Source: Thiohalorhabdus sp. Cl-TMA
GTDB taxonomy: Bacteria; Pseudomonadota; Gammaproteobacteria; Thiohalorhabdales; Thiohalorhabdaceae
Assembly: GCF_041821045.1 (NCBI RefSeq)
Contig: NZ_JBGUAW010000001.1
Coordinates: 372,001 to 436,000 of the forward strand
Direction: 5' to 3'
DNA: 64,000 nt
In this document: one piece after another, positions 23,861 to 26,047 of the stretch
Position numbering within the stretch: the stretch's first letter is position 1
Layout of the letters: every line of letters starts with the position of its first letter
Position numbers and translations under genes: made by a program
Notes under the pieces: generated by a model
The model's input: only the letters and a program-made list of their open reading frames with translations
The model's database searches: none
What the model was told of the DNA's origin: nothing

Positions 23861-24466
23861 CTAGAGCTTGGTGGTGAAGATCTCCAGGCCGAGGTGGTAG
23901 CCGGAGTCCAGGGGCCGGCAGTGCACCACCACGCACTCGTAGGTGCGGCTTGCCCCGTCCGGGTCGGCCACCGTGACCCGGATCACGCCGTCGGGCTCCA
24001 GGGGCGTATCGGTCTCGATCCCGATGCCGAAGGCGGAGGTATCCAGCAGGGTCCCCTCGGCGGCGCCGTCCGGCCATTCGAGCTGTACGCTGCGTCCGGG
24101 CTCCGGGAGCTGGCGACTGGCCAGGCGGTGCTCGGCGCCGCGCAGGAAGAAGGTGAGCCGCAGGCGGGCGTTGTGCAGGTAGTGGGTCAGCGTGCTGGAC
24201 AGGCCGCTGCCCTTGGAGGCGTCCACCAGCGCACTGAAGCGGGTGACCAGATCCTCGCTGTCTTGGACGGATTGGTGGCTGGGCTCGGGGGCCGGAAAGG
24301 CGGGGTTCGCTTCCCCCGTGAGGTGGGCCTGGATCCGGACCAAGCGCTGCCGTACCGCGGCCAGCTGCCGGGCCAGGAGGGGATCCACCCGGGCGGCCCA
24401 GGCCGCGTTCACCAGCCCGTCGATGCGGGCCAAAAGATCCTTGAAATCCTGAATCTGCTCCTGCAC
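23861..24466 (-). CDS. PilZ-domain protein (copy 1)
   Basis: A 201-residue protein. The C-terminal half is PilZ-like, with an RxxxR element (RLASR) and DxSxxG (DTSAFG) about 25 residues later, the two motifs that bind c-di-GMP. The N-terminal 110 residues are helical with no domain I know. A paralogue of nearly the same length (199 residues) lies 0.8 kb away; both share the core segments LVRIxxHLTG, STLTHYLHxARLR and a YHxGLEVF-like end. The start is a GTG at 24466 with AAGGGG upstream; the frame continues 45 codons further without a ribosome site. It is divergent from the uracil-DNA glycosylase gene. Confidence 0.82.
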   Translation of the reverse strand: MQEQIQDFKDLLARIDGLVNAAWAARVDPLLARQLAAVRQRLVRIQAHLTGEANPAFPAPEPSHQSVQDSEDLVTRFSALVDASKGSGLSSTLTHYLHNARLRLTFFLRGAEHRLASRQLPEPGRSVQLEWPDGAAEGTLLDTSAFGIGIETDTPLEPDGVIRVTVADPDGASRTYECVVVHCRPLDSGYHLGLEIFTTKL

Positions 24467-24563
24467 CCCTACCCCTTCGGCCGTGACCCTTGGAATTGCC
24501 GGCAACCTTAGCCCCGCGAGTCGATTTGGACAAGGCGGCTCCGTAAAACGAGGAGGATGCACC

Positions 24564-25280
24564 ATTTCCGATCTGATTGCCATTGATGACGAGCTGCGCA
24601 AGGCCGTGGATTCCCTGCGCTTTTCGGAGGCGGTGGACTACGTGTACAACCCCCTGGACTATGCCCGGGAGCCGCACCGGCAATACCTGGAGCGGTTCGG
24701 GCGTGGGAAGCGGGAGGTGGTCCTGGTGGGCATGAATCCGGGGCCGTACGGCATGGTCCAGACGGGGGTCCCCTTCGGGGAGATCGGCATGGTCCGCGAC
24801 TGGATGGGCATCGAGGGCGTGGTGGACCGTCCGGAGCGGGAGCACCCCAAGCGCCCGGTGGAGGGCTTCGCCTGCCCGAAGAGCGAGGTGAGCGGCAAGC
24901 GCCTCTGGGGATGGGCACGGGAACGCTTCGGGGCGGCGGAAGCCTTCTTCGGCCGGTTCTACGTGGCCAACTATTGCCCTCTGGCCTTCTTCGAGGAATC
25001 CGGCGCCAACCGGACCCCGGATAAGCTCCGCAAGGCCGACCGGGAGGCCCTGTTCGAGGCCTGTGACCGGGCCCTGGCCGCCACCGTGGACGCCATGCGG
25101 CCGGAGTGGGTGCTCGGCATCGGCCGTTTCGCCGAACGGCGGGCGACCGCGGCGTTGAAAGGCCGGGACGTGCGCACCGGCATGGTGCTGCACCCCAGCC
25201 CGGCCAGCCCCAAGGCCAACCAGGGCTGGGCGGAGCAGGCGGAGCAGGCCCTGCGGGACCTGGGCATCGCCCTCCCCTGA
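24564..25280 (+). CDS. SMUG1-type uracil-DNA glycosylase with apparent AUU start
   Basis: A protein of about 238 residues in the SMUG1 family. Motif 1 is GMNPGPYGMVQTGVPFGE and motif 2 is HPSPASPKANQGW, both close to vertebrate SMUG1. It removes uracil and oxidised pyrimidines from DNA. The start is odd. A strong GAGGAGG lies at 24549-24555, but the only ATG after it (24557) opens a different frame that ends after nine codons. In the correct frame the codon seven bases after the ribosome site is ATT (24564). The alternative in-frame GTG at 24483 has no ribosome site. Either an AUU start is used or there is a frameshift here. Confidence 0.85.
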   Translation: MSDLIAIDDELRKAVDSLRFSEAVDYVYNPLDYAREPHRQYLERFGRGKREVVLVGMNPGPYGMVQTGVPFGEIGMVRDWMGIEGVVDRPEREHPKRPVEGFACPKSEVSGKRLWGWARERFGAAEAFFGRFYVANYCPLAFFEESGANRTPDKLRKADREALFEACDRALAATVDAMRPEWVLGIGRFAERRATAALKGRDVRTGMVLHPSPASPKANQGWAEQAEQALRDLGIALP

Positions 25281-25290: not shown

Positions 25291-25889
25291 TACAGGATGG
25301 CGAAGACCTCGAGGCCGATGTGGTACTCGAAGCGGTTCTGCTCGCAGTACACCACCAGGCACTCGTAGCGCCGCCGGCGGGCTTCCTCCTGGGTGGTGAG
25401 CCGGGCCACCGTGCTCACCGCGATGGGGTTGCGGCCGATGACGCCGGCGCCATAGGCGGAGCTGTCCACCACCTCCACGGTCTCCCGGCCGCCCGGCCAT
25501 TCGAGCTCCGCGGTCCCCGTCTTCTCGTCGCGGTTGACGATCCGGCGCCCCGCCTGGCCGCGCAGGGAGAAGCGCATGCGCAGACGGGCCGTATGGAGGT
25601 AATGGGTGAGCGCCGAGGGCAGGCCCGCCCCGCGCGCGGCATCGGTGAGCATGCCGAACTGGTTGAGGAGGTCCTCGGTATCCGTCACCGACTTGGACTG
25701 GGCATGGGTACCCGGCTCCGCCTCCGCGGGCTGCCCGGTGAGGTGGTTGTGGATGCGCACCAGCCGGTGGCGGATGGTCACCAGGAAATCCACGGTCTCC
25801 GCGTCCACGTGCGACCGCCTGGCGGAATCCGCCAGGCCGTCCATGTGACTGATCAGGTCCTCGAACCGGGTGATGCCGAGCGTGGTCAA
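25290..25889 (-). CDS. PilZ-domain protein (copy 2)
   Basis: A 199-residue paralogue of the PilZ protein at 23861-24466. It has RxxxR (RIVNR) and DxSxxG (DSSAYG) with the same spacing, and an N-terminal helical half sharing RHRLVRIHNHLTG and SALTHYLHTARLRM. It likely binds c-di-GMP in the cytosol; no output domain or membrane segment is visible. The start is taken as TTG at 25889, with GGGAG five bases upstream, giving a length almost equal to copy 1. The two copies flank the SMUG1-type gene, which suggests that gene was inserted into, or trapped by, a duplication. Confidence 0.82.
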   Translation of the reverse strand: MTTLGITRFEDLISHMDGLADSARRSHVDAETVDFLVTIRHRLVRIHNHLTGQPAEAEPGTHAQSKSVTDTEDLLNQFGMLTDAARGAGLPSALTHYLHTARLRMRFSLRGQAGRRIVNRDEKTGTAELEWPGGRETVEVVDSSAYGAGVIGRNPIAVSTVARLTTQEEARRRRYECLVVYCEQNRFEYHIGLEVFAIL

Positions 25890-26047
25890 GGCCGCTCCCA
25901 ACTGGGGAATTGTCCGGCGCCGGCAATCGGCCGCGCCAAGCGAACCATAGCGGGGTGCCGACTTTCGGGCAAGCATACCTTAGGAGGTATCAGAGGGGTA
26001 CGGGAGCTCCTCGGGGAGAAGGGGTTATGGGCGCCTCAAGGCCGGTT

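Follow-up and report, generated by a model that had tools for sequence, protein, structure and literature searches.

The window, the whole 64,000-nucleotide stretch of Thiohalorhabdus sp. Cl-TMA DNA that was analysed, carries a gene for a putative SMUG1-type uracil-DNA glycosylase, smug1, whose translation very probably starts at an ATT codon. The relevant features, all on the plus strand, are the following.

24483–24485, plus strand: in-frame GTG, a rival start codon that is probably unused (SD run of only 2)
24550–24556, plus strand: Shine-Dalgarno sequence (SD) GAGGAGG, identified by direct reading, with a GGAGG core that can pair with the 3′ end of 16S rRNA
24557–24586, plus strand: out-of-frame ATG frame encoding MHHFRSDCH, probably untranslated and not a conserved leader
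24564–24566, plus strand: proposed AUU start codon of smug1, supported by an ATT in 3/3 genus genomes found, by the onset of conservation and by the starts of orthologues
24564–25280, plus strand: smug1, SMUG1-type uracil-DNA glycosylase, 238 codons plus stop
24606–24608, plus strand: in-frame GTG, codon 15 of smug1, a rival start codon that is probably unused (SD run of only 2)

Direct reading of positions 24548–24578 (acGAGGAGGATGCACCATTTCCGATCTGATT) confirmed two statements of the earlier note on this DNA: GAGGAGG is followed at seven bases (ATGCACC; SD run of 6) by an ATT in frame with the 238-codon gene, and the nearby ATG is out of frame and opens the peptide MHHFRSDCH. From the ATT at 24564 the frame is open through to the TGA at 25278–25280. 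The ATG (24557–24559) directly adjoins the SD without any spacing, its nine-codon frame stops at 24584–24586, and another ATG that is out of frame follows at 24586. The upstream stop of the glycosylase frame is at 24450–24452, and between this stop and position 24623 the only ATG, GTG or TTG codons of the frame are GTG 24483, which lies 27 codons upstream of the ATT, and GTG 24606. Searches for 16S rRNA in the assemblies of the genome of the window (G000) and of one relative in the same genus (G001) gave no match; the anti-SD was taken from a second genome of the genus (G002), whose 16S 3′ end, GGATTACCTCCTTT, can pair with the GGAGG core. A scan of 24380–24620 found no sigma-70-type promoter, and shuffled sequences give only 0.1 on average; the predicted RNA fold of 24500–24610 is not more stable than those of shuffles (z 0.80). 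The gene is flanked by two paralogous minus-strand genes, 23864–24466 and 25293–25976, which share 42% identity over 194 residues; the first encodes a PilZ domain (E 4.6e-7), and for the second Pfam gave no match at E 0.01.

The assignment of the product as a SMUG1-type enzyme draws on matches both to the superfamily (Pfam UDG PF03167, E 7.5e-10) and to a solved SMUG1 structure of the same enzyme family, that of Geobacter metallireducens (PDB 5h93; E 4.5e-90 to the chain, residues 3–235). No NCBIfam match was obtained at E 0.001. In a 38-row alignment chosen from about 100 loci, residues G56–P61, G63, M64, H210–A214 and P216 are invariant in 38/38 rows, as is L11; both GMNPGP.GM and HPSPASP, which we take to be the catalytic motifs of SMUG1, are thus intact in the product. 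The AlphaFold2 model built with this alignment has a mean pLDDT of 96.4, and its first helix spans residues 3–16. One locus elsewhere (L155, genome G373) gave a SMUG1 match with one TGA within the matched stretch.

Both of the other genomes of the genus that were found among 56 related genomes searched carry the gene, with protein identities to G000 of 78% (G001) and 65–67% (G002). Conservation of the ATT in orthologues, one of the checks put forward at the outset, was borne out within the genus, where ATT stands at the same codon in 3/3 of the genomes found, and not outside it, where it occurs in none of 93 orthologues. In each of the three genomes an SD lies at a working distance from the ATT, with a run of 6 at spacing 7 in G000, a run of 5 at spacing 4 in G001 and a run of 5 at spacing 6 in G002. 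The codons around it differ, reading ACC-ATT-TCC in G000, CCC-ATT-ACG in G002 and ATC-ATT-TTG in G001; among ACC, ATT and TCC, ATT is the sole well-known initiator. A plausible ATG, GTG or TTG start is absent in G000 and largely absent in G002, in which the canonical codons nearby are codons 4 (TTG) and 5 (GTG), with an SD run of 2, and, 16 codons upstream, a GTG with an SD run of 4. In G001, the frame is interrupted by a TAA located 27 codons upstream of the ATT, and the stretch from this TAA to the ATT lacks ATG, GTG and TTG codons; however, its codon 2 is a TTG that follows an SD run of 5 at spacing 7, whereas the ATT there has a spacing of 4, and this TTG may be the translation start in G001.

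Conservation also sets in at this place. In the comparison of G000 with G001, the identities at the first, second and third codon positions are 0.88/0.87/0.65 from the ATT on, compared with 0.44/0.41/0.33 in the 81 bases before it, and between G000 and G002 the corresponding values are 0.76/0.76/0.53 and 0.41/0.33/0.26; these comparisons are ungapped, so that small indels lower the upstream figures. Protein-level conservation therefore starts at or next to the ATT. Moreover, ATT makes up only 315 of the 3119 isoleucine codons across the aligned parts of 247 genes of G000, and where a G000 ATT faces an isoleucine codon in G001 in gap-free alignments, G001 has ATT as well in 24 of 114 cases; as a mere coding isoleucine codon, the ATT would thus have been unlikely to persist.

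The strength of the SD, taken by itself as proof of the start, was considered and rejected. On the contig, ATT is not enriched 5–9 bases after AGGAGG (12 seen, observed/expected 0.66), and the same, admittedly crude, test gave 57 for ATG (1.39), 40 for GTG (0.76) and a ratio of 0.83 for TTG. SD-like runs of at least 5 in both genomes preceded 76 non-canonical codon positions in 247 orthologous pairs. These pairs, which were what remained of 811 reciprocal best hits once overlapping frames had been removed, came from one contig pair (448,909 bases in G000 and 344,154 bases in G001) and were scanned from 40 codons before to 30 codons after the aligned start. An identical ATT, ATC, ATA or CTG codon with an SD run of at least 5 in both genomes occurred four times, namely the ATT of smug1, an ATC immediately followed by an ATG, and two CTG codons within aligned genes. 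In 104 of the 247 pairs, both genomes had an SD run of at least 4 ahead of an aligned canonical start; the other 143 pairs did not, and the scan therefore overlooks many ordinary starts. Because SD-like runs are common and ATT is not enriched behind them, the case for an AUU start rests on position and conservation rather than on the SD; the feature that looks non-random is the position of the ATT, which coincides with both the onset of conservation and the start position of the orthologues.

The latter position was determined by ungapped extension in 93 distinct orthologues from outside the genus, a set that leaves aside the six genus loci (L001–L004, L009 and L085), the duplicate L043 and also L101, which the tblastn matches did not include. 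The search for related loci had retained the best 80 of 195 relatives. In 71 of the 93, an ATG, GTG or TTG stands in the ATT column or in a column adjoining it, 55 of these having ATG. In the exact column, ATG occurs 13 times, GTG, TTG and CTG twice each, and ATT not at all; a canonical codon is absent from the interval of 9 codons before to 2 codons after the column in only four orthologues (L014, L034, L069 and L071). Of the two matches in a phylum-wide draw of 398 genomes, one was G000 and the other a locus that the set contained before.

Taken together, the presence of ATT in 3/3 genus genomes and its coincidence with the coding onset and with the orthologue starts give the AUU start suggested by the earlier note good comparative support. 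We therefore propose, with a probability of about 0.83, that smug1 starts at the AUU at 24564 by means of the SD GAGGAGG and that this start would be weak and disfavoured by IF3, so that the glycosylase is kept scarce; the start is argued from sequence comparison, and the weak expression and the role of IF3 by analogy. Considered alone, the start is very probably the ATT both in G000 (at 24564) and in G002, and in G001 it would be either the ATT or the TTG that follows. The first helix of the model starts at residue 3, which was likewise counted in favour of the AUU start.

The alternative that survives best, although it is very improbable, is initiation at GTG 24483, which would yield a protein of 265 residues with 27 extra residues at its N terminus. 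This GTG is the first ATG, GTG or TTG of the open frame and is what a mechanical ORF finder would call; however, its SD run amounts to only 2, it falls in the upstream region of the divergent PilZ-domain gene, 17 bases from where that gene probably starts (minus-strand GTG at 24466, by reading), and the 81 bases upstream of the ATT are poorly conserved. In G001 it aligns with GTA, in a frame that has a TAA and then no ATG, GTG or TTG before the ATT, and 71 of the 93 orthologues have a canonical codon no more than one codon from the ATT column. The proof of initiation at this GTG that the earlier note had named as a counter-case thus seems unlikely to be forthcoming.

Slimmer still is the chance of a base error, either an ATT that is in truth an ATG or a miscount of bases that hides an in-frame ATG 24557. 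A single change would indeed yield an ordinary start, and the orthologue L006 reads ATG TCC GAT CTG at this place, but ATT occurs at the same codon in both G001, at 78% identity, and G002, at 65–67%, and the counterpart of ATG 24557 in G002 is not an ATG; the one-base sequencing error first envisaged is therefore unlikely, as it would have to recur in three widely differing genomes. Equally slim is the suggestion that MHHFRSDCH is a leader that controls the glycosylase by translational coupling or re-initiation, or that it is joined to the glycosylase by frameshifting. The ATG and its frame do overlap the smug1 start, and GGATGCAYCATTT is common to G000 and G001; yet the ATG abuts the SD with zero spacing, the short frame of nine codons is one of 17 codons in G001, the ATG is missing in G002, and no slippery site was seen by eye at the junction, all of which speaks against the leader role raised in the earlier note. 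The least probable of all is a downstream start at GTG 24606, an in-frame canonical codon that is GTT in G001 and GTG in G002, as it has an SD run of only 2 and would delete most of the confident first helix (residues 3–16), including the invariant L11. The CTG at codon 4 (24573) was also considered as a start and rejected, with an SD run of 2.

If the AUU at 24564 is the start, the strong SD seven bases upstream would direct initiation to it. As judged from other bacteria, the initiator tRNA would pair imperfectly with AUU, and IF3 would destabilize 30S complexes of this kind; for these reasons smug1 would be translated at a fraction of the rate of an AUG-started gene, and its translation would rise as IF3 activity falls. 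The AUU would in this way keep scarce a glycosylase that makes abasic sites. In E. coli, co-expression of SMUG1 and the deaminase AID impaired growth, and the review that describes this links the effect to abasic sites (PMC12699328); on the strength of that account, a low level of SMUG1 is plausibly useful. That the AUU has been retained in order to hold SMUG1 low is a guess on our part.

The AUU start of pcnB in E. coli, reportedly described by Binns and Masters in 2002, is said to limit translation of that gene. The pcnB product may be harmful in excess. The parallel with smug1 is an AUU start on an enzyme that, for smug1 by inference, may be harmful in excess; the difference is that the gene is another one, and in G000 and G001 an in-frame ATG precedes the part of pcnB that matches the family. 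E. coli infC, the classic gene under IF3 control, starts with AUU and is autoregulated by IF3 (PMC5472188, PMC9410913). smug1 would share the AUU start with it, and infC in the genus itself apparently begins with AUC in 3/3 genomes; however, the smug1 product is a DNA-repair enzyme, so that control by IF3 would form no feedback loop. One of these articles gives the infC start as ATC in Streptomyces and ATT in E. coli (PMC5472188).

Two further systems bear on the comparison. In Staphylococcus aureus, the AUU start of cvfC1 and the AUA start of ccpN gave about 10% of the expression of AUG in reporters in RPMI medium, and the cvfC1 AUU is conserved among staphylococci (PMC13009471). These starts resemble that of smug1 in that a non-canonical codon follows a strong SD, but they were measured by Ribo-Ret and reporters, whereas the smug1 start is put forward by comparison only. 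For sigR of Streptomyces coelicolor, PMC5472188 describes a GTC start that is repressed by IF3 and a canonical GTG that lies inside the SD. There, as proposed for smug1, where an ATG abuts the SD, annotation is led astray by a canonical codon at the SD, and the gene in fact begins a few bases downstream with a non-canonical one; in contrast, the sigR start is GTC rather than ATT, belongs to a sigma factor, and was established by Edman degradation and mutants.

Experimentally known bacterial AUU starts are few, and in E. coli infC and pcnB are named as the only two in PMC9410913. As a further natural AUU start, smug1 is a good candidate, in this case a DNA-repair gene and with the ATT present in three species. 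No new mechanism would be involved. If true, it would tie base excision repair to the fidelity of translation initiation. Starts of this type escape predictors that are restricted to ATG, GTG and TTG (PMC5472188). Among the matches listed in the literature search, the titles and abstract openings make no mention of an AUU-started glycosylase, and the one paper that turned up for the two subjects together deals with a tool for activating translation.

A gene for IF3 was found in all three genomes of the genus. By inspection, infC in each of them (L103, L102 and L104) has GGAGG followed at seven bases by ATC GCT AAA, and in G000 and G001 no ATG, GTG or TTG occurs from the upstream stop as far as the family match. 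On these grounds infC probably starts with AUC in 3/3 genus genomes, and an IF3-sensitive start is therefore probably in use in the genus. A start predictor limited to ATG, GTG and TTG would misplace this infC start as well.

Weak starts may also be more widespread among SMUG1 genes. CTG is the best SD-placed start in three orthologues, L069 (Deltaproteobacteria), L078 (Acidobacteria) and L014 (Chromatiaceae). The CTG start of L069 (position 1501) overlaps, by eye, the end of another open frame; that of L078 (1501) has two TTG codons with weak SDs further upstream; and that of L014 (1495) is ambiguous owing to an upstream ATG. These orthologues provide a lead to the idea that SMUG1 starts may be kept weak beyond the genus. 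A bolder version, which we consider doubtful, is that the SMUG1 start has repeatedly been kept weak (AUU in the genus; CUG in L069 and L078 and possibly L014) and that SMUG1 and infC, with its AUC, would belong to a small set of genes that respond to IF3 activity, in which uracil repair would rise when IF3 is limiting. A second gene of the UDG superfamily is present in both G000 (L157, contig C12, 2128–2574) and G001 (L156, contig C10, 477591–478037). By eye, its start is probably a TTG common to the two genomes, and both glycosylases of G000 would therefore have weak starts.
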